A DNA stretch of 32,017 nt, taken from NCBI GenBank assembly GCA_015711725.1, contig JACVIX010000023.1, forward strand, positions 1-32,017, written 5' to 3'. Made by a program: the position numbers and the translations under genes. Source of the stretch: Candidatus Geothermincola primus. GTDB taxonomy: Bacteria; Actinomycetota; Geothermincolia; Geothermincolales; Geothermincolaceae. Positions 14,751-31,772 of this stretch are shown here, piece by piece. Under the pieces are notes generated by a model. The model searched no databases and was not told where the DNA came from. It worked only from the letters and a program-made list of their open reading frames with translations. The stretch's first letter is position 1, and each line of letters starts with the position of its first letter.

Positions 14751-16622
14751 GTGTCGGTTTGGATATTCTTTCACCCTCTGGAGAATAAGGTTGAAGCGGT
14801 GGAGGAGAATAGCATTCTCGAAGCGGCTCTCAAAGCCGGCATTCCCATGGATAACCTCTGCGGTGGCCTTGGCAGGTGCGGAAAATGTAAGGTGCTAGTG
14901 TTGGAGGGAGAATGTTCTCCCCCCACTTCCGAGGAGAAAAACTACCTCAGCCAGGAGGAACTACGTAAAGGGCTGCGGCTAGCCTGCCAGGCTCGTCCCC
15001 TCACCCATACCAAGGTATGGCTTCCTCCCACCACCCTCACCCAAGAGCAGAGGTTGCAGCTGGAGGGAAAATCCACCTACTTCAGCCCAGACCCATCGGT
15101 GAAAAGGTTCTTCATTCCCATGCCCTCAACCAGCGTCCGATCTCCGGATAACCTACATTCATATATTACTACCACTTTAAAAGATAATCACATTATTGTT
15201 AAACCTAAACTAGACACTTATATTAATGATAGAATTTCCAGCCTTAATATCGCCTCTCAAAAGGACCTTTCGGTGATAATCAGAGGAGATACCATTCTTG
15301 ACGTAAGGGAAAAATCTGAAATCACTCCACTCCAGGGAGTTGCCGTGGACCTGGGCAGTACCAAAATAGCCCTGTTTCACCTGGACCTGGAGAGCGCCCA
15401 GCTCTTGGGGGCGCATGGTTATATGAATCCCCAAATCAGCTACGGGGAAGACATCATCTCCAGGTTAAACTATGCCATCCGTAATAAAGATAACCTGAAA
15501 AAGCTGCAACAAGTAGTCATCGAAAGTATAAACCTCAACTTAAGGTTTTTACTGGAAGGGAAGTCCTCCCTTAGGGAAATCATGGAGATTACCCTGGTGG
15601 GAAATACCGCCATGCACCATCTTTTTCTGGGTTTGGACGTGGAAAGCCTAGCCTTCAGTCCATATGTGCCCTTGGAGGAGCGGCCCCTGGAATTATCAGC
15701 TGACGCCCTGGGTATTATGGCGCACCCCAAAGCGAAAGTAGTACTTCCCCCTCCCATCGCAGGATTCGTGGGGTCAGATCACCTGGCGGTGGTTCTTGCC
15801 ACCAAATTACAAGAGGAGGAAAAGCCCTGCATGGTCATTGATATCGGCACCAATACCGAGGTGTCCCTGAAAAGCGGAGAGGAGATATTTTGCTGTTCCT
15901 GCGCTTCGGGGCCCGCTTTCGAGGGCGCGGGCATCAAATATGGAATGCGCGCCTCCGAAGGTGCCATCCAAGGTGTGCATATACATCCCACCTCCGGAGA
16001 GGTCCTTTTTTCAGTGGTGGGGGGAGATACCCCTAGAGGTATATGTGGGTCGGGAATCCTCGACGCCGTCTCCTCTATGGTCAAAGCGGGAATCGTGGAT
16101 CCCCGGGGAAAGCTGCTGCCTCGTCATCCACGAGTAATTCATGGGGATGACGGATACAGCTTTCGCCTGGCTCCTATGGAGGAGAAAGGTGCATGGGTCG
16201 AGGTAACCCAATCGGATATCCAAGAGATTCAAAAAGCCAAGGGGGCCATCCGCGCGGGGATAGAAGTGCTTCTCCACCGGGCGGGCATAGGCTACCATCA
16301 GCTCAATAAATTGGTCATCGCGGGCGCCTTCGGTTCCTATCTTGACCCCGCCAGCGCCAGGAATATCGCCATGCTACCCCCTATCTCCCTTGATAGGGTG
16401 GAACAAGTGGGCAATGCCGCTGGCGTGGGGGCGCGGGAGATGCTCTGCTCCATCAAATCGCGGGGCCAAGCCTACCGCTTGAAGGAAAGTATAACCCACG
16501 TAGAGCTGGTGACTTACCCCAAAATGGAGTCTTTCTTCGCCTCCTCCATGCTCTTGAGCGAAGAGGCAGTGCAGGATTACCGTCGTAAGTTCAGGCTCAA
16601 TCCCCCAGGAAGCACTTCCTAA
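14751..16622 (+). CDS. Reductive activator of corrinoid proteins (RACo/COG3894 type)
   Basis: A 623-aa ferredoxin-ASKHA fusion. The N-terminal [2Fe-2S] domain has Cys37, Cys43, Cys46 and Cys79. A linker (about 85-195), including a notably AT-rich stretch at 15160-15250, leads to an ASKHA ATPase domain with GVAVDLGSTKIALFHLD, TLVGNTAMHHLFLG, MVIDIGTNTEVSL, CASGPAFEGAGI, GICGSGILDAV and VIAGAFGSYLDP. This is the architecture of RACo/RamA-like enzymes, which reduce Co(II) corrinoid to methyl-accepting Co(I) at the cost of ATP. The GTG start is supported by AAAGGGGGGG just upstream. In context it would reactivate the three corrinoid proteins encoded on the opposite strand at 18.0, 30.5 and 31.1 kb. 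It is convergent with the first corrinoid/UroD pair. Confidence 0.92.
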   Translation: MSVWIFFHPLENKVEAVEENSILEAALKAGIPMDNLCGGLGRCGKCKVLVLEGECSPPTSEEKNYLSQEELRKGLRLACQARPLTHTKVWLPPTTLTQEQRLQLEGKSTYFSPDPSVKRFFIPMPSTSVRSPDNLHSYITTTLKDNHIIVKPKLDTYINDRISSLNIASQKDLSVIIRGDTILDVREKSEITPLQGVAVDLGSTKIALFHLDLESAQLLGAHGYMNPQISYGEDIISRLNYAIRNKDNLKKLQQVVIESINLNLRFLLEGKSSLREIMEITLVGNTAMHHLFLGLDVESLAFSPYVPLEERPLELSADALGIMAHPKAKVVLPPPIAGFVGSDHLAVVLATKLQEEEKPCMVIDIGTNTEVSLKSGEEIFCCSCASGPAFEGAGIKYGMRASEGAIQGVHIHPTSGEVLFSVVGGDTPRGICGSGILDAVSSMVKAGIVDPRGKLLPRHPRVIHGDDGYSFRLAPMEEKGAWVEVTQSDIQEIQKAKGAIRAGIEVLLHRAGIGYHQLNKLVIAGAFGSYLDPASARNIAMLPPISLDRVEQVGNAAGVGAREMLCSIKSRGQAYRLKESITHVELVTYPKMESFFASSMLLSEEAVQDYRRKFRLNPPGSTS

Positions 16623-16748
16623 ATCAACATCTTCGAAAAGGAGATAACGACTTCGCGGTGGAGCCCATCTTCCCTCCTCAGGGCACGTTTCTTCAACGAG
16701 TTAACCTCTCTTGCCCCGAGAACGCCCGCACGGAGACCTTTCCATAAG

Positions 16749-18020
16749 CTAACTTTCATCCACGGGCAACCCTTCCTTTTCTCGCCAAATCCCATAATTG
16801 GGCTTTTCCGGAATCTTCAAGGGCAATAGGTCCAGATCGTGAGCGATGGGGTAATTCCCCCATTGCTTCACCGAGGCCACCAGAGCGTGTAGATGTTCCG
16901 GTGGCGTGCCCATCGGCACTAGGTTCAAAAGCAAGACCATACGCCCTTTTCCCGCCCCCTCCCTCAGGAGCTTTCTTACCATCTCCAGGATCGCTTCCAC
17001 CGGTCCCTCCTCGATGAGATTGGGGCTGAAATTAAGCATCAGGCAGACTCTTTTCTCCTCCGCGTAGCCTCGAACGTGGGATATGCCCACTTCCTCGTAG
17101 TCCTCATTCCACACCAGCAGAAAGAAGGGGCGCAGCGCCGGAAAACGATTTCCCGGCACCATCATCTCCATCTTTATATCCAGCACTTCTCGGAAATCTT
17201 TTACCCACCGCTCACCCCAGCTCCCGGTATCCAGCACCGTGCGGGTGGGGGAGCTGGTGGCGGCGATGATTTTATGAATATAAGGAAGGCAGAATTCCCG
17301 CACCATCTCGGTGGTGACATTGGGCTGGGAAGCCCAGGCGTCTGACATAGTCACCATAGACGGTTGGACCTTTTCCGCCATCTTTTGGATCCAGGGAACC
17401 ACTACTTCCATGCTTAGAAATTCCATCAGGCGATGGACAAAAGCGGGGTGGCGCCGCACATCTCTGATTAGATTGACATATCCGCGGATGAGCACCGCCA
17501 TGGTGAAGGGGGAACAGGCATAGACTATGGGGGGTACCCCCATTAACTCGCTGTAACGCTCGTAGGACTCCAGAACGAAGGGCATGCGCCCACTCTTCCC
17601 CGGCACCGGGGGCTTAAGTTTGGAGAAGCTTTCTCTTTCCGGTAGGAGGGGCCTGCGCGTGTCCACGTCCGGCTCGCTCTCCTCCCTCCAGATGAGTGTC
17701 TGTCCCAGAGCCTCCACCTCGATGTTATAAAAATCGAAGACTGGGGACCAGAAATCCACCTCGAAATAACGGGCGGTGTTCATGGAGGCGTGAATAAAGG
17801 GTCGGGGACGGGTGAAAAAGGTCCGAGCGGATAGCCGGTTCAGCCGCATCGCGTAGGTATACGGCTGCATGAGCACCGGCACCCGGTCTGGCTGCCCATA
17901 TATGGCGGCGATAAGGCGCTCGTATCCATCCAAGCCATCCCTGCGCCAGCCCACCCCATACGCCAGACCACGAGCCATTCTACGTAGAACTCCCAGCTGA
18001 AAGCCTGCTTTCGCGTCCAA
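16749..18020 (-). CDS. Divergent UroD-family (MtaA/MtbA-like) protein without zinc ligands
   Basis: A 423-aa protein with the uroporphyrinogen-decarboxylase-type TIM barrel used by corrinoid methyltransferases. Recognisable parts are the N-terminal DGYERLIAAIYGQPDRVPVL, an internal IRGYVNLIRDVRRHPAFVHRLMEFLS and the C-terminal TPPEHLHALVASVKQWG. Where zinc-dependent relatives have a His-x-Cys-like pair, this protein reads TVLDTGSWG, and where they have a late Cys (SGCEIPP) it reads LLNLVPMG, so the usual Zn site appears absent. The start is TTG directly after the TGA of the corrinoid gene, with GGGAGGT 6 bases upstream, implying tight translational coupling. It may use another mode of substrate activation, or be a porphyrin- or corrinoid-binding partner. 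Function unassigned beyond family. Confidence 0.8.
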   Translation of the reverse strand: MDAKAGFQLGVLRRMARGLAYGVGWRRDGLDGYERLIAAIYGQPDRVPVLMQPYTYAMRLNRLSARTFFTRPRPFIHASMNTARYFEVDFWSPVFDFYNIEVEALGQTLIWREESEPDVDTRRPLLPERESFSKLKPPVPGKSGRMPFVLESYERYSELMGVPPIVYACSPFTMAVLIRGYVNLIRDVRRHPAFVHRLMEFLSMEVVVPWIQKMAEKVQPSMVTMSDAWASQPNVTTEMVREFCLPYIHKIIAATSSPTRTVLDTGSWGERWVKDFREVLDIKMEMMVPGNRFPALRPFFLLVWNEDYEEVGISHVRGYAEEKRVCLMLNFSPNLIEEGPVEAILEMVRKLLREGAGKGRMVLLLNLVPMGTPPEHLHALVASVKQWGNYPIAHDLDLLPLKIPEKPNYGIWREKEGLPVDES

Positions 18021-18659
18021 TCAGCCACCTCCCAACAGTCGCTCCACCAGGCTTACCGCCTGGGCGGCGTCTTTCCCGTAACCGTCGGCGCCTATCTTCT
18101 TCGCATAATCCTCGGTCACCGCTGCCCCTCCCACGATAACCTTCACCCTTTCCCGAAGACCCGCCTCTATCAGAGACTGAATGACCTCGGGCATCCTCCT
18201 CATAGTGGTGGTCATGTAGGCGCCCAAGCCCAGCACATCCGGGTTTGACTCCCGTACACTCTCCACGAAAGCCTCCTTCTCTACGTCTATACCCAGGTCG
18301 GTCACTTGGTAACCGGAGCCGCGCAGCATGGCCACGACGATATTCTTTCCGATTTCGTGGGCGTCTCCCTCCACTGAGCCTATGACCACCGATCCCCTGC
18401 CACGCCTCTCGCCCTCGCTCAGCAGGGGTTCCAACGCGACACTCACCTGGTTATAAGCCTCGGTGGCTAGAATGACGTCAGGCAGGAAATATTCTCCCTC
18501 CTGCCATAGCCGCCCCGCCTCGATTATTCCTGGGATAGCCCCTCTCTCCAAAATTTCCCAAGGATTTATATTTTCGTCCAGAGCCGCGCTGACGATTCTC
18601 TCAGCCTGCTCCTCCTCTCCCTCACAGATGGCTCTCTTCAGCTCCTCTTCCCAAGCCAT
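18021..18659 (-). CDS. Methyltransferase corrinoid (cobalamin-binding) protein
   Basis: A 212-aa protein of the MtaC/MtbC type: an N-terminal four-helix cap (about 1-85) and a B12-binding Rossmann domain. The lower cobalt ligand is His101 in EGDAHEIGKN, fitting DxHxxG, followed by SGYQVTDLGIDV, VLGLGAYMTTTM and VIVGGAAVTEDYAKKIGADGYGKDA. It would carry a methyl group between a substrate-specific methyltransferase and the folate-linked one. The start has AGGAGGAGGT 9 bases ahead. Its stop is immediately followed by the TTG of the divergent UroD-family gene, so they form a pair. A TTAC-N5-GTAA palindrome lies 208 bp upstream. The N-terminal domain differs clearly from those of the other two corrinoid proteins of the window, consistent with a different partner. 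Confidence 0.93.
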   Translation of the reverse strand: MAWEEELKRAICEGEEEQAERIVSAALDENINPWEILERGAIPGIIEAGRLWQEGEYFLPDVILATEAYNQVSVALEPLLSEGERRGRGSVVIGSVEGDAHEIGKNIVVAMLRGSGYQVTDLGIDVEKEAFVESVRESNPDVLGLGAYMTTTMRRMPEVIQSLIEAGLRERVKVIVGGAAVTEDYAKKIGADGYGKDAAQAVSLVERLLGGG

Positions 18660-18964: not shown

Positions 18965-19510
18965 TCAGCCTTCCACATCGCGAACGAATGTGCTTACCAA
19001 ATCCATGAACCGACTCCAGTTCACCACCAGAGTCACTGCTATCCAGGCGAGAAACAGCCAACCCCATATGGGATTGTGCACGAAAGCCACGATTATGGGC
19101 GTGGCGGACACGGGGGCGGAGACCGCCATCACGTAAGCTTTATTCATCCAGACCAGCGCGATCATCGCCACGTATAAGCAGTAAAGGAATAAGGGCAGGG
19201 AGGGAAGGAAACCCGCGGAGATGACGTAGATGAGGGTGGCGTACATAATTCCCAAATCCGCAAAGAATTCATGATCCCCGATCCAGCTCTTTTTGCCGGT
19301 GTTGTCAGAGCGCGCGAAATTGCCATCCATCACGTCCGTAGTCCAGCCCGCTAGCACCAAGAATATTACTAGTCCTAATAGATCTTTATTGCCCAGATAA
19401 GCGCAGATAAGGATGAAAAAAGAGATTAAGAACCGAGTAATCGTAAGCGCGTCGGCTATAACCCTCCCGTAAGGCCTTATGCTCTCCCTGAAAGCTAAGG
19501 TTCCACGCAA
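18965..19510 (-). CDS. CDP-alcohol phosphatidyltransferase family membrane enzyme
   Basis: A 181-aa integral membrane protein with about five to six hydrophobic segments, placing it in the CDP-AP family that makes phospholipid headgroup linkages. The conserved core reads Asp59-x2-Asp62-Gly63-x2-Ala66-Arg67, matching the first half of the family signature. In the second half the canonical Gly-x3-Asp-x3-Asp is replaced by Gly78-x2-Glu81-x3-Asp85 after a spacing two residues longer, so the first metal-binding Asp of that half may be Glu. Start is TTG with GGAGG 9 bases upstream; an ATG seven bases earlier is out of frame. It follows the flippase-like gene by 42 bp in the same direction, suggesting a joint role in lipid or lipid-linked glycan biosynthesis. 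Product lipid unknown. Confidence 0.75.
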   Translation of the reverse strand: MRGTLAFRESIRPYGRVIADALTITRFLISFFILICAYLGNKDLLGLVIFLVLAGWTTDVMDGNFARSDNTGKKSWIGDHEFFADLGIMYATLIYVISAGFLPSLPLFLYCLYVAMIALVWMNKAYVMAVSAPVSATPIIVAFVHNPIWGWLFLAWIAVTLVVNWSRFMDLVSTFVRDVEG

Positions 19511-19552
19511 CCCTCATCCCTCCTCTTTCACATTATCTCATTAAATCTCCGC

Positions 19553-20650
19553 TTAAGAGCCGGTTTTTAGACAACCGCGCTTTGTCTCCCGACGTCTGTC
19601 AAGTCGAAGGAAAAGATAGCATACGCCACCCGCCGCGGTGCAAAGCCAGTAGCTGAAGAAGCGGAAACCTAGTATGGCGGTGGCGAGCATCGCTCGGGGA
19701 TAACCATAGGCGTAGAGTACCGCTCCCATGGCTACCTCGAAAACGCCCAGCCCGGCAGGGGTAAGGGGAAGGCTTCCCAAGATGTCCGCTATGGTATAAG
19801 CGATGATGACCACGCCCAGATTTACCGGGCTACCGATGGCTCTGAAGACCACAAAGAGACATGCCATGTCCATGAGCCAGAAGCCCAAGGCGTAGAACCC
19901 ATTTTCCAGCAAGCTTCGGCGCTCCCACAAAAGTCCTTGAATGAAACCACGCATCTCCATTACCTGCGCAACCATAGCGCTCTCCTCGTAGCTCCTCCAT
20001 GCGCCCAGCTTGCGCAAAACTCGGACAAAGCGGCAAGCCATTCTTTCTAAAAAGGCCTCTCTCCTTATGACCAGAGAGAACGCCAGCATAAAGAGGAGGC
20101 AGCCTAAGGAGATAAAAAGGGCGGTCAACCTATAACTTGAAGGCAAGCCCGCCACCAATGCGGAGAACAACAAGCCCATGGAGAGAATCAGAATCATGGC
20201 TGCCGAATAAAATATATTCGCCGCGGTGAGTACCTTGAGGATCAGGGTTCGGGAGAGATTTTCCCGGCGCATCTCCACGTAGTTTAGGTAGAAGGTTCCG
20301 GCGTTTCCGCCGGGAACCACGTGGCCAAAGGCGTAAGCGGACATATAAATGAGCGCGGTGCGCCTGAAAGAGAGTCGAGCTCCACCTTCCCTTTGTAGCC
20401 TGTAATAGAGAAAGCAGACGGATAGCATGGATAGGGTCTCCACGGCAAGCGCCAGAGGGATAAAGGTTAAATCGGCGCGGCGAACCACGTTGAGCATCTC
20501 CGCCTCGCCAATGAAACGTGGAACCAGCAGATAGAGCCCGATTCCCAGCAGCAGGATGATCACCAGGTTCTGAACGAATTCGCCCCGCCGGTACCTGCTC
20601 CGTTCTTTTACACCGCCTAAAATTTCTCCCTCTTCAACCCGCGTAGACAA
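19553..20650 (-). CDS. Lysylphosphatidylglycerol synthase TM / UPF0104 flippase-like protein
   Basis: A 365-aa multi-pass membrane protein of the UPF0104/AglD-like family (the transmembrane half of MprF). Seen: seven or eight hydrophobic segments, GHVVPGGNAGTFYLNYVEM near 112-130 and SLPLTPAGLGVFEVAMGAVLY near 293-313, both family hallmarks. The family includes proteins that flip or present lipid substrates, but most members are uncharacterised. There is no C-terminal lysyl-transfer domain. The TTG start is well supported by AAGGAGT about 6 bases upstream. It forms a two-gene unit with the CDP-alcohol phosphatidyltransferase downstream. The link to the surrounding methyl-transfer genes is not obvious. 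Confidence 0.8.
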   Translation of the reverse strand: MSTRVEEGEILGGVKERSRYRRGEFVQNLVIILLLGIGLYLLVPRFIGEAEMLNVVRRADLTFIPLALAVETLSMLSVCFLYYRLQREGGARLSFRRTALIYMSAYAFGHVVPGGNAGTFYLNYVEMRRENLSRTLILKVLTAANIFYSAAMILILSMGLLFSALVAGLPSSYRLTALFISLGCLLFMLAFSLVIRREAFLERMACRFVRVLRKLGAWRSYEESAMVAQVMEMRGFIQGLLWERRSLLENGFYALGFWLMDMACLFVVFRAIGSPVNLGVVIIAYTIADILGSLPLTPAGLGVFEVAMGAVLYAYGYPRAMLATAILGFRFFSYWLCTAAGGVCYLFLRLDRRRETKRGCLKTGS

Positions 20651-21264
20651 TTAATACTCCTTTTTGTTTCGCCTTCCTCCACAGGTAAAATCGGGTTAGC
20701 TAGGTAGGATCCCTCCTCGTTTAAATGAATCGTTAAAAAATCGTATTACTATATTATATTTTCGTATCAAGCAATTGTATATTCCGGAGTTCATAAACTG
20801 TCAACGAGGTCGTCTTTCTTCCCCAATCGGCGGTCGAGGCGCGTTTCAGCTTAACACTCCTCACTTACATCTTTGCCCTCCAAGGAGATGGAACCAGCAA
20901 ACCGGAGATCCTTTCCCGTCTCGCCATGGCATGAAGAGCATACGCGCGATTTGCCCGAAAGGACACCGTCGCTTCCAAGGAGAAACCATGAAGTGGCGAA
21001 AGTCGATTCTTGAAGGTGATCCTTGCCCTGCGGGCCATCGCCGTTAGTGGTTCTTCCAGCATATACTCGAAAGGTCCGCGTATGGATATCCTTCTTTTAT
21101 CCGTCTTTTCCAGACGTTGCGAGCCTGTTGACTGTCCCTCCGCTGGGGTAGAACAATCTTGATGGATAAGAAGGAGGACGCCCTCACAAGCCATAAGTGG
21201 CCGGTTTCAGACTCTCTACTTCTTTTTGGGAATCGCAACAAGAATCAAGGTTTACACCAACATT
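20651..21264. other. Gene-free region of 614 bp
   Basis: The left 130 bp are AT-rich and may hold the flippase promoter. The remainder has coding-like composition, but every frame is broken or lacks a start signal. A minus frame at 20865-21194 repeats AMARRxRI twice, which may reflect an old short duplication or a decayed gene. No product can be named. Confidence 0.4.
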
Positions 21265-22434
21265 TTAGATCGCCAAGGCCAATTCCCACACCCGCGATTT
21301 ATTTTGTTCCCGTGGACCGTTATGATAGGTCTCGGCGATAATCTTAGCAAGCTCTTCCATGTCCCTTGGTCCCATGCCCATCCGAGTTATCTCCGCGGTT
21401 CCCATTCTCCCCATTGCATCTATAAATATCCCAATCTCTTCCAGCCACATGCTTAGCTTGGAGGCGCTGGAGGCATCCAGGTCTAGAATCACTTGGTGGG
21501 ATGAGGTATAACCGTGTTCCCTAAAACGTACCGGCACACCGAACTCGTCCAGGCGCCTGGCCAGTATCTTGGCGTTATCGATCACTCTCCTCCCATACCC
21601 CGTGTCATTAAGCATCTCTTCCAAGGCTATGCCCAGGGCGGCGATGCGGTTGAGATGGGGGTTGTCCACCAGAGCCGGTCCAGTCAGCTCCACATCCACC
21701 ATCTTGCGCAGAGCCACCGCATACTCAGGCACATTGGTGAGGATGATTCCACCTTGGGGGCCGAAAAAGGACATATGGGTACTTCCTACCAACAGATCCG
21801 CTCCTTCCCCCAAAGGGTCCTGGAACTGTCCGCAGGCGATAAGGCCTAGAACTTGGGATCCTTCATAGACACAAATTCCTCCCTCACCCAGCTTCCTCAT
21901 GCCCTCGCTGATCTCCCTCACTGGATGAGGAAAAGGGAAGAAGGACGCGCCCAGCATAACCACTCCCACCTTCTCTTCCTGGATTTTCCTTAGCGCGTGT
22001 CCCACGTCGATAGTGGTGGCGCTCTCGTTGAGCACGAAGGATACCCTTCTGCGGTTAACCTTTTCCAGGCCCAACTGTAAACCACCTTGGGCGCTGGAAA
22101 GCAGAGCTACCTGGTCCCAGGGCGCGGTGAACGTGAGTATCACCGCTAGATCGCAGATGCGCCCGGAAGGAGGGGTGACCAAGGCGAATCTGGTGCCGAA
22201 TAGCCTGCGCGCCAGTTCTTCGGTCTCCTCAATGATTCTCCTTGCCGCTGCCGTCCCACCATAGAAACGATGGTGACTTCTCCCTGCAAGATCGCTGGCA
22301 AGAGCCCTCAGCGCTCTCTCTGAGAGGCGATTCTCCGAGGCATTCAGATTGATGCCCTGGGAGCGCATCGCCTCGTGGCTCTCGATCAGCCTGCCAATTA
22401 TCGAATCTACGCTCACGATCCTTATCGTCTCCAA
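21265..22434 (-). CDS. Serine hydroxymethyltransferase homologue lacking the PLP lysine
   Basis: A 389-aa protein with the SHMT fold: NLNASENRLSERALRAL (29-45) matches the IASEN motif, RFYGG (56-60) matches RYYGG, and GADLLVGSTHMSFFGPQGG (211-229) matches the VTTTTHKTLxGPRGG active-site loop. The Schiff-base lysine of that loop is Met221 (codon ATG at 21774-21772). The Asp that holds the PLP pyridine nitrogen aligns with Glu191, the nearby His with Gln194, and the His that stacks on PLP with Gln116. The carboxylate-binding Arg region (EITRMGMG) persists. Ordinary transaldimination is therefore unlikely, though the frame is intact and long. The start is uncertain: TTG 22434 has no Shine-Dalgarno, while GTG 22416 has AAGGA close upstream. 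Its nearest upstream co-directional gene, about 480 bp away, is the methyl-THF methyltransferase. Function unknown. Confidence 0.8.
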   Translation of the reverse strand: METIRIVSVDSIIGRLIESHEAMRSQGINLNASENRLSERALRALASDLAGRSHHRFYGGTAAARRIIEETEELARRLFGTRFALVTPPSGRICDLAVILTFTAPWDQVALLSSAQGGLQLGLEKVNRRRVSFVLNESATTIDVGHALRKIQEEKVGVVMLGASFFPFPHPVREISEGMRKLGEGGICVYEGSQVLGLIACGQFQDPLGEGADLLVGSTHMSFFGPQGGIILTNVPEYAVALRKMVDVELTGPALVDNPHLNRIAALGIALEEMLNDTGYGRRVIDNAKILARRLDEFGVPVRFREHGYTSSHQVILDLDASSASKLSMWLEEIGIFIDAMGRMGTAEITRMGMGPRDMEELAKIIAETYHNGPREQNKSRVWELALAI

Positions 22435-22913
22435 AATTTAGCTAACTAAAGTCGACCGTCGAGAGGAAACCAATCGGTTGATGGGTCGACTCCGGTGTAA
22501 TCCCGATTTCATAACTTATATCGTATAAATATATCGGAGGATATATCCGTGTACTAAATAGAGATTCTCATTGCAAATCCATGATTTTTTCATGTTTAAG
22601 AATATTCAGAACGTAATATTTACAAATTGACTTAAATCCCGCTGCGCACATTGATTCCCTTTTCCAGGTAAAGATTAACTATAGGAAAAGCTCACGTTAA
22701 GCCCCTTAGGAATCGCCACCTGGACCGTTAGCGCAAACACGTCAAGTGAGAACTCCAAATGTCAACCCTATCCTAAATCAAGCACCGAAAGCTTTATGTG
22801 TCCGCTCGCATCCACAACCTATTATGTTTGACAATATATAAATATCTGCCAATCCGTTGGGATTTATTCATGAGATACACAATTCATGGACGATCTTCAA
22901 CTGAGGGAACCTT
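22435..22913. other. AT-rich intergenic region
   Basis: About 480 bp separate the SHMT-like gene from the methyltransferase gene. The stretch holds GGATATATCC (a 10-bp palindrome near 22539) and AT-rich half-sites such as CGTAATATTTACA near 22612. No gene or RNA is recognised. Confidence 0.4.
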
Positions 22914-23732
22914 CTATAACTTTCTCCGCTGACGGTAGTCTTGAAGAAATCTCCTCCCCATGGCGTCATGACCCATTAGCATGTCCGCTGCCAGGATGGC
23001 TTGCACCACCCCTTCCTCCAACGGGTTGACGATGGCGGCACTTAGCCCCGCCTTAATGGCCATAGAGAGGAAGGAGGCGTTAATCACGTTCCTGGTGGGC
23101 ATTCCGAAACTTATATTGGAGGCACCCAACACCGTTCCCACCCCTAACTCCGGGCGAGACCTTTCGATGCACGCGAGGGTAACGTTGGCCGATTGAGAAT
23201 CGGTGGCAACTGGGATGGTAAGAAAATCTATCAATATCCTTTCCGCGGCGATACCGAATTCAGCGGCACGCTGCACGATGCGGTGCGCCAGCTCTAATCT
23301 CTTCTCCACTGAGGTGGGAATTCCTTCTCTATCCTTGGTTATCCCTATGATAAAAGCGCCGCTTTCCGCCACGTCGGGAAGTAGCTGGTCCATCATATCC
23401 TCATCCGCGGTGACCGAATTGACTAGAGTATCCTCACCAGGCAGTTGTTTAAGCGCCGCGCGCAGCGCCGCGGCATCCGAGGAGTCCAGGCTTATGGGCA
23501 ACCCGGTGGCTTGGCGAACCGCCAGGGCCGCCCGGGGCAGCATCTCTATCTCATCCACACCCGCCGCGCCCACGTTCACGTCGATGATCTCTGCCCCGGC
23601 TCGAGCCTGCGCCTGAGCGTCGGCGATGACCATATCCACTCCTTTCGTTTTCAATTCGGCGGCTAGCGCCGGCCTTCCGGTGGGGTTGATACGTTCCCCG
23701 ATTATCAAGGTATGGTCTCCTAGCTCGATCAT
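22914..23732 (-). CDS. Methyltetrahydrofolate:corrinoid methyltransferase (pterin-binding family)
   Basis: A 272-aa pterin-binding TIM-barrel protein of the AcsE/MtgA/MtvD type. It would move a methyl group between a corrinoid protein and tetrahydrofolate in the cytosol. Seen: IIGERINPTGR at the N-terminus, IIDVNVGAAG, PISLDSSDAAAL, NSVTADED and LGASNISFGMP, all characteristic; in homologues the Asp of DVN and the Asn of the LG(V/A)SN segment contact the pterin. Start 23732 is chosen over an ATG 9 codons upstream because AAGGAGGG precedes it by about 9 bases. It lies 166 bp downstream of the second SDR gene. It is the only folate-linked methyltransferase in the window, so it is the likely common acceptor step for the corrinoid proteins encoded nearby. 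Confidence 0.92.
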   Translation of the reverse strand: MIELGDHTLIIGERINPTGRPALAAELKTKGVDMVIADAQAQARAGAEIIDVNVGAAGVDEIEMLPRAALAVRQATGLPISLDSSDAAALRAALKQLPGEDTLVNSVTADEDMMDQLLPDVAESGAFIIGITKDREGIPTSVEKRLELAHRIVQRAAEFGIAAERILIDFLTIPVATDSQSANVTLACIERSRPELGVGTVLGASNISFGMPTRNVINASFLSMAIKAGLSAAIVNPLEEGVVQAILAADMLMGHDAMGRRFLQDYRQRRKL

Positions 23733-23898
23733 CTCTTTTTTTCCCTCCTTGGAAATCACGATCTATCATCCAGGTTAGATTCCTTAATGCAATATTAATA
23801 TATTGTAAATAATTTATCGTCTATACACAAACATTCTTTTATCGCTTATCTTATCAACCTTTCCCGGCTACGGCGTGATGCTTATCCGCAAGAGGTTC

Positions 23899-27968: not shown

Positions 27969-29165
27969 TCACTTATTGTAATATCCATACTTGAAAACCG
28001 ACTGAAACATGGTTCTGACGTTCTCGGGCTTGGCGTTGGGAGGAATCTCACATCCCGCTCCCATGACATACCCGCCGTCTCTGCCCACCTCCTCGATGAG
28101 ACGATGACAATACTCGTCCACCTCGTTTTCCGATCCCAGACAAAGGAGATGATTGGGCACGTCCCCCATGATGCAGACGCGATCGCCGATGACTCGCTTG
28201 GCCAAAAATATATCGGTGGGACCATCGAACTGCACCATCGCGCTTCCCGCGGGGAGCTCTCTTAAGGTCTCGAGGTTGAGATCCCAGTTGCCGTCGCAAT
28301 GGAGGATAGGGGTTATATTATGTAAAAGCAACTTCTCCACCAGCTTTTTGAGAGATGGGAAAGAAAGCTCTCGGAAGGTCTGCGGGGAGATGAAATCTGA
28401 GGCGGAGCGATGCACTGCTATCTCTATGCGGGGTACCCTTAGCAATCCCGCTACCAGCCTACAAATTCTCACGTAGCCGTCGATTAGGGCGTCGGTCGCC
28501 GTCACTATCTCCTCCGACCTGCTGCGCACGTCTTTTATGAAAGGGACCAGACCCCTGGCAAGGGAAAAATAGTCGAAAGGGGCCTCGATAATCAGAGAAT
28601 AGAGGATGGCAAGCCCCTTCCTTTTCCACATCTCAAACTCCTTCGCCCAGGTGGCTAGGTGGTGAAGGAAGCGGGGGAGAAGATAGACATAGCCCCTCCA
28701 ACCTTCCTCCACCTGCTGCCAGATCCGGGAAGCCACTCGTTTGGAAAGTCTTATATAGGACCAGTTAGGGGTCTGTCTTGAGATGGAGGTGACCCACCCA
28801 TAGTCCTCGGGGGCAAGAACCTCTTCCTCCAGCAGCTGGTGGATGCAGTCATCGGGGAGGTTCATCCCAGGCCAGCGCGCCTTCATGGGCATGACAAAGG
28901 AATAGAGCTCGGGATAGCGCACGTTCACCGGGTAATGGAAATCCCAAGGGCCTAGGTCTTCCCAGCATTTAAACAGGGCTGCGCGGAAGGCTTGGGGATC
29001 ATCCCACACCTGGCGCATGGTGATTCCCCCATAGCTTCCCGCGAAGTAATTGTTCAAGGAAGAAGCGGGCACCCGGTCGGGCACCTGCAAATTAATCACC
29101 GCTCGCAGTCGTTCCTCTGCAGTCATGGTGTCCCTTTTGTCAAGAGTTCTATCTTCTCGCGTCAT
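27969..29165 (-). CDS. UroD-family corrinoid methyltransferase, paralogue 1
   Basis: A 398-aa MtaA/MtbA-like TIM-barrel methyltransferase. The N-terminus MTAEERLRAVINLQVPDRVP is the family opening. His289 and Cys290 (LHCDGNW) and Cys372 (AGCEIPPNAKPENV) are candidate zinc ligands comparable with the His and two Cys of MtaA. A GDRVCIMGDVP segment precedes the last. The start follows AGAGGGGG by 6 bases. It is the last of four or more genes reading leftward behind a GntR-type regulator, with two corrinoid proteins just upstream. The gap to paralogue 2 is 91 bp and holds a TTAC-N5-GTAA palindrome, so it may have an extra promoter. It would methylate a corrinoid protein from a substrate that cannot be named from sequence, or transfer the methyl onward. 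Confidence 0.88.
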   Translation of the reverse strand: MTREDRTLDKRDTMTAEERLRAVINLQVPDRVPASSLNNYFAGSYGGITMRQVWDDPQAFRAALFKCWEDLGPWDFHYPVNVRYPELYSFVMPMKARWPGMNLPDDCIHQLLEEEVLAPEDYGWVTSISRQTPNWSYIRLSKRVASRIWQQVEEGWRGYVYLLPRFLHHLATWAKEFEMWKRKGLAILYSLIIEAPFDYFSLARGLVPFIKDVRSRSEEIVTATDALIDGYVRICRLVAGLLRVPRIEIAVHRSASDFISPQTFRELSFPSLKKLVEKLLLHNITPILHCDGNWDLNLETLRELPAGSAMVQFDGPTDIFLAKRVIGDRVCIMGDVPNHLLCLGSENEVDEYCHRLIEEVGRDGGYVMGAGCEIPPNAKPENVRTMFQSVFKYGYYNK

Positions 29166-29224
29166 TGATGCCCCCTCTTCTTAAAGGCCGCTTAAAGTGT
29201 CTCGTTTCAATGTCAGAATAATTT

Positions 29225-29237
29225 TTACTATATGTAA
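29225..29237. promoter_or_regulatory. TTAC-N5-GTAA palindrome before UroD paralogue 1
   Basis: TTACTATATGTAA is an exact match to the arm pattern at 1035 and 18867, and lies 60-72 bp upstream of the start codon, a typical distance for promoter-overlapping control. Confidence 0.4.
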
Positions 29238-29256
29238 TAATAAATTGTAAAAATAA

Positions 29257-30477
29257 TCACGCTATCTTTCTTGCTTGTTCCGCAGCCCTGTCCTGGTAAT
29301 AACCGTATTTCACTACCGATTCCATCATCACCTTGACGTTTTCCGGCTTGGCGTTGGGAGCCAACTCGCATCCGGAAGCCAGGATGAAGCCGCCGCCCTT
29401 GCCCACCTCCTCGATGAGGCGGTGGCAGTACTCGTCCACTTCGCTGGGTGAGCCTAAGGCGAGCAAATCCGCGGGGACATCACCCATAATGCAGATACGG
29501 TCCCCCACTATCTCCTTGGCTTTGAAAATGTTGGTGGAACCGTCGCATTGCATAATCGCCTTTCCCGCGGGGAGTTCCCTCAACGCCTCCAAGTTGAGGT
29601 CCCAGTTGCCATCGCAATGCAGCACGGTGGGAACTCCCAAAGCCGCGAACCTCTCCACTAGCTTTTTGAGAGAAGGTAAAGATAACTTGCGGAAGGTCTC
29701 TGGGGAGATGAAATCATTGGAGGAGCGATGCAGACAGAGATCCGCGCGCTTAACCCCAGTGATCATGCTCACCATCTTGAAGGAATATACGAAGGATTCC
29801 ACCAGGGCGTCGGCGGCCTGCGCTATCTCCTCTTGCCGCTTTCTTAAATCCTCTACGAACTTGAGCATGCCCCGGGCCATGGAGAAATTATCGAAAGCAG
29901 CTTCGGTGGGGCAGGCGTACATGATGGCCACTCCTCGACGTTTCCAGCGCTCGAATTCCAGCCGCCATCTCAACCCCGCGCTTATCAAGCGTGGCCACAT
30001 GAAAGCGTAGGATCTCCATCCCTCCCCCACGTGCTCCCAGATGCGCGGTATCCACCTCTCCATAAAAAGCCGATAGAGAGCGTAGCGAGGGGTGAGCTTG
30101 GAGACACGCATGATCCACTGGTAATCCTCCTCTTTCATGATTTCTTCTTCCAGGAACTGTCGGATGCTGTTGGGGGGAAGCTCGAAACCCGGCTCCAGCA
30201 CCTTCATGGGAACGAAAAAAGAGATGAGTTCTCGATGGTAGGCATTGATATAGTAGTGAATGTCCCAAGGGCCCAAATCATAGAAAACCCGGTCCAATGC
30301 CTTATTGAATTTGGCGGGATCATAGAGCTCCGCGTTGTTTATCCCGGCGTAGCGCGCGGCAAAATAATATATAAGAGGGGAGACGGGAACTCGATCGGGC
30401 ACCTGCAAATTAATTACTGCTCGTAGTCTTTCCTCAGCGGTCATGGTGTCCCGCGGATGCAGCTTCACTTCCTTCAT
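29257..30477 (-). CDS. UroD-family corrinoid methyltransferase, paralogue 2
   Basis: A 406-aa paralogue of the downstream gene, sharing long identical stretches (MTAEERLRAVINLQVPDRVP, FISP(E/Q)TFR, SLKKLVE, LHCDGNWDLNLE, NAKPENV), so the two arose by duplication. Zinc-ligand candidates are His287, Cys288 and Cys370. The sequences differ most in the N-terminal half around residues 40-160, the part likely to shape the substrate pocket. The start has AAGGTGAGG a few bases ahead. It begins 24 bp after the end of the second corrinoid gene, consistent with one transcript. Two methyltransferases with two corrinoid proteins suggest matched pairs with different substrates, or a demethylase and a transfer enzyme. 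Which is which cannot be told here. Confidence 0.88.
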   Translation of the reverse strand: MKEVKLHPRDTMTAEERLRAVINLQVPDRVPVSPLIYYFAARYAGINNAELYDPAKFNKALDRVFYDLGPWDIHYYINAYHRELISFFVPMKVLEPGFELPPNSIRQFLEEEIMKEEDYQWIMRVSKLTPRYALYRLFMERWIPRIWEHVGEGWRSYAFMWPRLISAGLRWRLEFERWKRRGVAIMYACPTEAAFDNFSMARGMLKFVEDLRKRQEEIAQAADALVESFVYSFKMVSMITGVKRADLCLHRSSNDFISPETFRKLSLPSLKKLVERFAALGVPTVLHCDGNWDLNLEALRELPAGKAIMQCDGSTNIFKAKEIVGDRICIMGDVPADLLALGSPSEVDEYCHRLIEEVGKGGGFILASGCELAPNAKPENVKVMMESVVKYGYYQDRAAEQARKIA

Positions 30478-30501
30478 CGTCGCCTCACCTTCCCCGAACG
30501 C

Positions 30502-31134
30502 CTAACCTAGATAGATGCCCGCCAGTTTCAGCGCCTCGGCGGGGTCCTTTCCATAAGCGTCCGCACCCGAATATCCCACCACTGTCTCATTGACCGGGCC
30601 CCCACCGATGATCACCTTGACCCTATCCCTCAAGCCCGCCTTCTCCAGGGCTTGCACCGTCTCCTTCATGGAATCGAAAGCGAGGGTGAGGAGTCCCGAG
30701 AGAGCCAGCAAGCCCGACCCAGTCTCTTTGACCTTCTCCACGAAAGATTGAGGGGTGACGTCCACCCCTAAGTCATGGACGTCATACCCGCTGCAGCGCA
30801 GCATGGTGGCTACGATATTTTTACCGATGTCGTGGATATCTCCCTGCACGGTGCCGATCACGATGGACCCCCGCGAGGGGGTGTCCACCGCCTGGAGATG
30901 GGGTTCGATCAGGGCTATGGCTTGTTTGAAAATCTCCGCGGAAAGAATCAAATCGGGGAGGAAATACTCCTTCTCCTCGAACCTCTTTCCCACCACCGCC
31001 ATGCCTTCTCTCAACTCTTCCACTATAGAGAGAGGATCCCTCCCCGCGTCCAGCGCCTCTTTCACTTGGGCAAGGGTGCGCTCCTCCTCCATCTCCGCGA
31101 TCAGCGACGCGATACTCTCACTCAACGTAATCAC
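30502..31134 (-). CDS. Methyltransferase corrinoid protein, second of tandem pair
   Basis: A 210-aa MtaC/MtbC-type corrinoid protein with an N-terminal helical cap (1-85) and a B12 domain: GDIHDIGKN with His101 as Co ligand, SGYDVHDLGVDV, LLALSGLLTLAFDSM and VIIGGGPVNETVVGYSGADAYGKDP. The annotated GTG start overlaps the preceding TGA as GTGA, with AAAGGA touching it; a TTG three codons later (31125) would be 8 bases from GGAG and may be the true start. Together with the gene upstream it forms a tandem pair of related but clearly distinct corrinoid proteins. It should accept methyl groups from one of the two UroD-family proteins downstream. Confidence 0.93.
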   Translation of the reverse strand: MITLSESIASLIAEMEEERTLAQVKEALDAGRDPLSIVEELREGMAVVGKRFEEKEYFLPDLILSAEIFKQAIALIEPHLQAVDTPSRGSIVIGTVQGDIHDIGKNIVATMLRCSGYDVHDLGVDVTPQSFVEKVKETGSGLLALSGLLTLAFDSMKETVQALEKAGLRDRVKVIIGGGPVNETVVGYSGADAYGKDPAEALKLAGIYLG

Positions 31135-31772
31135 TCCTTTCTCGTAAACATCCTGGCGAACCTCACCGCATCCATGGCGTCGTGGCTCCAGGCATCGGCT
31201 CCCGCGTAATCGCAGACCCTCTGGGAGATGGCTCCGCCTCCCAGCATTATCCTCACCCGATCCCTCAAGCCCGCGCGCTCAAATCCGGAAACCGTCTCCC
31301 TGATTGACTCATACGCCATGGTAATCAGGGTGGTGATGCCCACTACCTCCGCCCGGTGTCTAACTGCTTCCTCCACGAACTCCGATGGGCTCACGCTCAC
31401 CCCCAGGTCGATGACTTTAAAACCTGAACAACGCAGGAGCATGGAGACGATTCCCTTACCGATGTCGTGAACGTCCCCTAGAGGGGCTCCCAGTATCACC
31501 CTTCTCTGCCCCTCTTCCATCGCATGAGGGAAGAGGCGGCGTTCCTCCATCATGGCCACTATCTCCTTGAAGATCTCCCCGGAAAGGATCAATCCGCTTA
31601 GGAAGTACTCCCGGCGCTCATACCTCTCCCCCACCAGCTTCAGTCCTTCCCTGCACACCTCGATTACGCGCAAGGGCTCAACCCCACGCGAAAGCATCTT
31701 TTCGGCGAGTCCGATCGCTCGCTCTTCTTCCAGATCGGATATGGCTCGGGCAAGTTCCTCATAGTTCTCCAT
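31131..31772 (-). CDS. Methyltransferase corrinoid protein, first of tandem pair
   Basis: A 213-aa corrinoid protein with the same two-domain layout. The B12 motif is LGDVHDIGKG with His102; the usual Asn after GK is Gly here. It continues SGFKVIDLGVSV, VGITTLITMAYESI and IMLGGGAISQRVCDYAGADAWSHDA. The C-terminus lacks the typical GYGKDA and reads AWSHDAMDAV, a small departure from its relatives. It starts 11 bp after the GntR-type regulator gene and overlaps the next corrinoid gene by 4 bp (GTGA), so it belongs to that operon. Confidence 0.92.
   Translation of the reverse strand: MENYEELARAISDLEEERAIGLAEKMLSRGVEPLRVIEVCREGLKLVGERYERREYFLSGLILSGEIFKEIVAMMEERRLFPHAMEEGQRRVILGAPLGDVHDIGKGIVSMLLRCSGFKVIDLGVSVSPSEFVEEAVRHRAEVVGITTLITMAYESIRETVSGFERAGLRDRVRIMLGGGAISQRVCDYAGADAWSHDAMDAVRFARMFTRKE

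Follow-up and report, generated by a model that had tools for sequence, protein, structure and literature searches.

The roles of the active-site residues of SHMT were described for the Thermus enzyme in a joint X-ray/neutron study (PMC10397204). D197 pairs with N1 of PLP, H200 contacts its O3', H122 stacks on the cofactor, and Y51* is a ligand of the PLP phosphate contributed by the other subunit. The SHMT of M. jannaschii (PDB 4uqv and 4bhd) is tetrahydromethanopterin-dependent (PMC3697235). Homologues of PLP enzymes devoid of the Schiff-base lysine are already known, such as Rv3778c of M. tuberculosis, a fold-type I protein that its authors judged to be probably non-catalytic (PMC12910592). 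We found no SHMT pseudoenzyme and no natural Lys-less case of the SHMT family in the open-access papers searched.

We analysed a 32,017-nucleotide stretch of the actinomycetotal genome of Candidatus Geothermincola primus (contig JACVIX010000023.1, positions 1 to 32,017), hereafter called the window. It harbours an SHMT-like gene, known from this single assembly of 225 contigs, with the following features:

21265 to 22434, minus strand: SHMT-like ORF of 389 codons, or 383 codons from the probable true start, GTG at 22416
22429 to 22432, minus strand: GGAG, a possible ribosome-binding site read directly from the sequence, 12 nt upstream of that GTG

The ORF contains no internal stop. The GTG codon at 22416 (residue 7) is probably the start, based on the GGAG upstream of it and on the match to the N-termini of related proteins. 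Residues are nevertheless numbered according to the 389-codon ORF, as in the original prediction. The codon-position G+C contents (0.59/0.43/0.64) resemble those of neighbouring genes on the contig. A+T-rich stretches of about 38–45% GC, compared with 53% for the window, flank the gene at 22440–22914 and 20650–20800, with no recognized RNA families in them. The Rfam search of the whole window gave no match, promoter and terminator scans were near shuffle expectation, and the repeat search around the gene yielded short imperfect repeats only.

The protein matches the Pfam SHMT profile over residues 8–336 with 71.9 bits (cut-off 27), and it scores 203.9 bits with the NCBIfam SHMT subfamily profile PRK00011, under the cut-off of 335. 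Its nearest solved relative by sequence is M. jannaschii SHMT (189 bits). An AlphaFold2 model built on a 74-sequence alignment reached a pLDDT of 94.5 and a pTM of 0.93, and the top Foldseek matches of this model were 4uqv and 4bhd (TM about 0.88, about 36% identity). The SHMT fold is thus confidently predicted to be retained.

We transferred the residue roles from Thermus SHMT by way of an alignment that included E. coli GlyA, and the pocket is described from this alignment. The positions of interest are the following:

22276 to 22278, minus strand: Ser53 (AGT) in place of the cross-dimer PLP-phosphate Tyr (Thermus Y51*; TAC/TAT in relatives)
22159 to 22161, minus strand: Arg92 (CGC) at the phosphate-binding position of Thermus S95 (Asn in 14/14 close relatives)
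22078 to 22080, minus strand: Leu119 (TTA) at the PLP-stacking position (Thermus H122, E. coli H126; Tyr/His in relatives)
21862 to 21864, minus strand: Glu191 (GAA) in place of the Asp pairing with PLP N1 (Thermus D197, E. coli D200; GAC/GAT in relatives)
21853 to 21855, minus strand: Gln194 (CAA) in place of the His contacting PLP O3' (Thermus H200, E. coli H203; CAC/CAT in relatives)
21772 to 21774, minus strand: Met221 (ATG) in place of the Schiff-base Lys (Thermus K226, E. coli K229; AAG/AAA in relatives)
21406 to 21408, minus strand: Arg343, the substrate-carboxylate arginine, which is kept (Thermus R358, E. coli R363; from the alignment)

At positions 221, 191, 194 and 53, all 73 aligned relatives have K, D, H and Y, and the window protein alone has M, E, Q and S. 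Two of these replacements, D191E and H194Q, are conservative. The stacking position is occupied by Tyr or His in 72 of the 73 relatives, and Asn or His is found at position 92. The original prediction had correctly placed Met221, Glu191 and Gln194 at the lysine, aspartate and histidine sites. Its assignment of the stacking histidine to Gln116 was an alignment slip, as that residue aligns with E. coli H123, which is variable among the relatives, and it had missed both Tyr53 to Ser and Asn/His92 to Arg. The substrate-site residues Ser33, Tyr58, Arg343 and His313 (S31, Y61*, R358 and H312 in Thermus) are kept, as are Gly91, His220 and the scaffold of the GSTH-GPQGG loop. The catalytic Glu, which is E53 in Thermus and E57 in E. 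coli, has His55 in its place, and the loop for folate (E. coli N347) is deleted.

The gene is present in 13 of the 18 genomes of the order, including that of the window. The other twelve proteins are 51–57% identical to it, each of them with K, D, H and Y. In a scan of 84,980 species, the relatives were mainly archaeal. The closest are of Thermoplasmata type (L049 at 53% and L063 at 47% by tblastn), all have the lysine, and the archaeal relatives range from 33 to 53% identity. Phylogenetic analyses placed the window protein as the sister of the twelve same-order sequences (SH-aLRT 91), within a fully supported clade of 15 that also comprises L049 and L063. Lys is therefore ancestral, and its loss occurred on the window's own branch. 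The grouping of the short SHMT-like genes of this Actinomycetota order (L033–L046) with archaeal L049 and L063 suggests a transfer between archaea and bacteria.

We searched for a second protein with Met, Glu and Gln at these positions, as the original prediction had proposed to check whether a clade has them in common. None was found in the order, the class, 397 genomes of the phylum or the best 80 loci of the 84,980-species scan. We also scanned the 397 genomes for a DNA motif with a non-Lys codon at site 221 that starts with A followed by C, G or T, and only the window matched. The corresponding scan for codons that do not begin with A gave five matches, none of them SHMT-like by tblastn; together, the two scans covered replacements other than Asn (AAY).

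The original prediction also held that a lysine at position 221 in related genomes would point to a mutation in a single strain or to a sequencing error. All aligned relatives do have this lysine, but neither conclusion follows, because the pocket differs at six positions at once, by nine nucleotides or more, on a long branch. The K-bearing relatives rather supply the ancestral state. That the gene encodes a canonical PLP enzyme distorted by faulty sequencing or assembly might be considered for a gene from a single assembly, but we regard it as extremely improbable. Sequencing error is not credible because it would have to account for six separate changes in the pocket and no fewer than nine nucleotides, with the frame left undisturbed. 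Moreover, the gene differs by 43–49% from its nearest relatives throughout its length, so a local error does not explain the difference.

Random decay of the gene is disfavoured by the distribution of the changes. Among the 29 columns invariant in the 73 relatives, the window protein keeps 25 and alters four (Y53, D191, H194 and K221), all of which are side-chain ligands of PLP. Given four random changes among 29 columns, these four would be hit with a probability of 4.2e-5, and any four of the five PLP-contact positions from the literature with one of 2.1e-4. Relative to the 14 closest proteins, five of the six invariant PLP-contact positions (the set being taken from PMC10397204) are changed, versus 5 of the 96 remaining ones (Fisher p = 1.7e-5). 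In total, 10 of 102 invariant positions are changed in the window protein, compared with 9 of 101 in each of the archaeal proteins L049 and L063, whose changes spare the PLP ligands lost in the window. The branch of the window protein is not unusually long (0.67 vs 0.57 and 0.57 for L049 and L063). Its identity to L049 is 51.3%, against 51.7% for the K-bearing relatives, and its distances to the outgroups are close to theirs as well.

In simulations of neutral drift to 60–70% identity, 2.6–3.7 stops arose on average, and the frame was free of stops in 5–19 of 300 runs. These simulations exclude long-standing neutrality, whereas a relaxation that set in recently would escape them. A relic silenced only recently, in which the PLP-site changes represent early decay and the frame has not yet had time to be broken, could still look as the gene does now. 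That the gene is known from one genome only and that G001 (82% complete), the nearest other family member searched, is devoid of it are consistent with such a relic, as is the presence of a canonical SHMT in the genome (see below), which may make the paralogue dispensable. Nevertheless, we consider this scenario unlikely, since all four changes at universal positions fall on PLP ligands, the six pocket sites require nine nucleotide changes or more, the invariant positions unrelated to PLP are no less well kept than in equally distant relatives that bear the lysine, and codon periodicity is normal. The frame, the codon composition, the evolutionary rate and the predicted fold are all of the kind seen in genes under constraint. 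The claim that several PLP contacts changed together while frame and fold were kept thus stands, and the concentration of the changes in the pocket agrees with an altered function rather than simple decay. Based on the alignments and the tree, we see here a concerted, lineage-specific loss of the PLP site, with sequencing error ruled out and random decay disfavoured.

The window protein belongs to a subfamily of short SHMT-like proteins, represented in our alignment by 55 sequences from Bathyarchaeota, Nitrososphaerota, Thermoplasmata, Asgard archaea and one order of Actinomycetota (loci L033–L043, L046, L049–L078 and others). The folate loop and the catalytic Glu (E. coli Glu57) are absent from 55/55 members, including those that bear the lysine, and the stacking residue is Tyr rather than His in nearly all of them. 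The K-bearing members tested scored 208–324 bits, under the NCBIfam SHMT cut-off; L090, a long archaeal SHMT, exceeds it with 507.9 bits. In 9 of the 13 genomes tested, a second SHMT is found alongside the short one. The window protein groups with this clade, is devoid of the folate loop and has the FQDPL.EG and GSTH...GPQGG motifs. It is the sole member without the PLP-binding Lys, Asp, His and Tyr, all four of which are kept in the 54 others.

The ancestor was in all likelihood a PLP enzyme working without folate, and extant K-bearing members are possibly folate-independent aldolases or transaldolases. To our knowledge, no member has been characterized. The K-bearing proteins thus apparently represent an uncharacterized and probably folate-independent PLP family, usually found in genomes with a canonical SHMT. 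With the folate loop and the catalytic Glu missing throughout the subfamily, the earlier suggestion of a folate-binding pseudoenzyme is unlikely.

The genome of the window follows the same pattern. A canonical SHMT is encoded on another contig (554.7 bits, 33% identity to the window protein) and covers the housekeeping role. No other SHMT family member was found in the genome besides these two. We considered a heterodimer with a K-bearing sister subunit and rejected it, as the genome has no other short-clade member and only the canonical SHMT. Catalytic complementation across the dimer is also unlikely because the cross-dimer Tyr53 is lost.

The original prediction had pointed to the corrinoid/folate methyl-transfer genes around the SHMT-like gene. 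They are indeed present in the window, together with a flippase-like gene:

14751 to 16622, plus strand: RACo-type corrinoid reductive activase (profile match)
16749 to 18020, minus strand: URO-D/MtaA-type methyltransferase (profile match)
18021 to 18659, minus strand: cognate corrinoid protein of a methyltransferase (profile match)
19553 to 20650, minus strand: LPG_synthase_TM flippase-like membrane protein (profile match)
22914 to 23759, minus strand: methyl-THF:corrinoid methyltransferase (PRK07535, 260.8 bits, cut-off 259)

The corrinoid methyl-transfer region is dense (14751–18659, 22914–23759 and 27969–31772). Besides the RACo activase and the methyl-THF methyltransferase, it comprises three URO-D/MtaA-type methyltransferases and no fewer than two corrinoid proteins, and DUF1638 and CobW-type genes are interspersed among them. 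A gene for a CDP-alcohol phosphatidyltransferase (18965–19510) lies about 42 bp from the LPG_synthase_TM gene, and the two probably form a unit (18965–20650) directly downstream of the SHMT-like gene. The gaps between the latter and its recognizable neighbours are about 480 and 615 bp. In the twelve same-order relatives, the neighbourhoods comprise ECH, rubrerythrin, TetR, AFOR and PGA_cap genes, and those of the archaeal relatives comprise PGK/GAPDH, DNA ligase/PRC-barrel, radical SAM/translin and isopropylmalate-dehydrogenase-like genes. No corrinoid system was found next to the gene in any of the same-order and archaeal relatives examined, and their neighbourhoods gave no hint as to function. 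As no examined relative shares it, the corrinoid neighbourhood says little about function, and we dropped the proposed link to corrinoid/folate methyl transfer.

With moderate confidence, we favour a natural, non-catalytic pseudoenzyme, whose PLP ligands were replaced on its own branch and whose fold otherwise continued to evolve under ordinary constraint; the catalytic residues are lost and the fold is kept, as expected of such proteins. It would descend from an SHMT-like protein that depended on PLP and did without folate, in a subfamily known chiefly from archaea and a single actinomycetotal order. On the way to the window genome, the four side-chain ligands of PLP that are strictly invariant elsewhere were all replaced (K221M, D191E, H194Q and Y53S), and the stacking and phosphate-site residues became Leu119 and Arg92, respectively. 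PLP would then no longer be bound as a Schiff base, and most likely there would be neither an internal aldimine nor PLP catalysis. We speculate that the intact carboxylate pocket (Ser33, Tyr58, Arg343, His313) might serve a ligand-binding, sensing or regulatory role, or a structural one, and that Arg92 might hold an anion at the former place of the PLP phosphate.

The replacement of the lysine alone does not prove the loss of the cofactor, as the K226M variant of B. stearothermophilus SHMT was crystallized with serine (PDB 1yjy), and fold and ligand binding can thus survive without this residue. PLP might accordingly still be bound non-covalently, as an external aldimine or PMP, with a reduced or altered chemistry, and D191E does retain a carboxylate near N1. 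We nevertheless find this very improbable. The stacking residue, the cross-subunit phosphate Tyr and the O3' His are also gone, such that every strictly invariant PLP side-chain ligand is lost, the lysine being just one of them. The joint loss of these other ligands makes loss of PLP likely, and some residual cofactor binding may persist.

A broader alternative to the non-catalytic pseudoenzyme, which we hold as tentative, is a cofactor-free SHMT descendant whose remodelled pocket (Arg92, Glu191, Gln194, Met221 and the kept carboxylate arginine) would support either PLP-free catalysis or sensing. Its strictly enzymatic version, in which these new residues would perform a PLP-free reaction on a carboxylate substrate, appears quite improbable. 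The concerted nature of the changes, the new Arg at the phosphate site and the preserved carboxylate pocket and GSTH-GPQGG scaffold are consistent with it, but neither a set of catalytic residues nor a substrate can be put forward, the new residues are not conserved in any clade, and the genomic contexts of the relatives are uninformative.

The pseudoenzyme that we favour can be compared with three described proteins. The FQDPL.EG and GSTH...GPQGG motifs are common to it and M. jannaschii SHMT, but that enzyme also has the PLP-binding Lys, Asp, His and Tyr and a pterin-binding loop, all of which are missing here. Rv3778c is likewise a relative of PLP enzymes devoid of the Schiff-base lysine; however, its kin are cysteine desulfurases and selenocysteine lyases, whereas those of the window protein are SHMTs. 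The K226M variant of B. stearothermophilus SHMT has the same Lys-to-Met replacement at the same position. It was made in the laboratory as a single change with the other PLP contacts intact, in contrast with the six natural pocket changes of the window protein. The loss is unusually clean in the latter, with the universal side-chain ligands of the cofactor gone and nothing else universal changed. As its close K-bearing relatives fix the ancestral state, they form with it a tractable pair for following how a cofactor-dependent enzyme becomes a cofactor-free protein.
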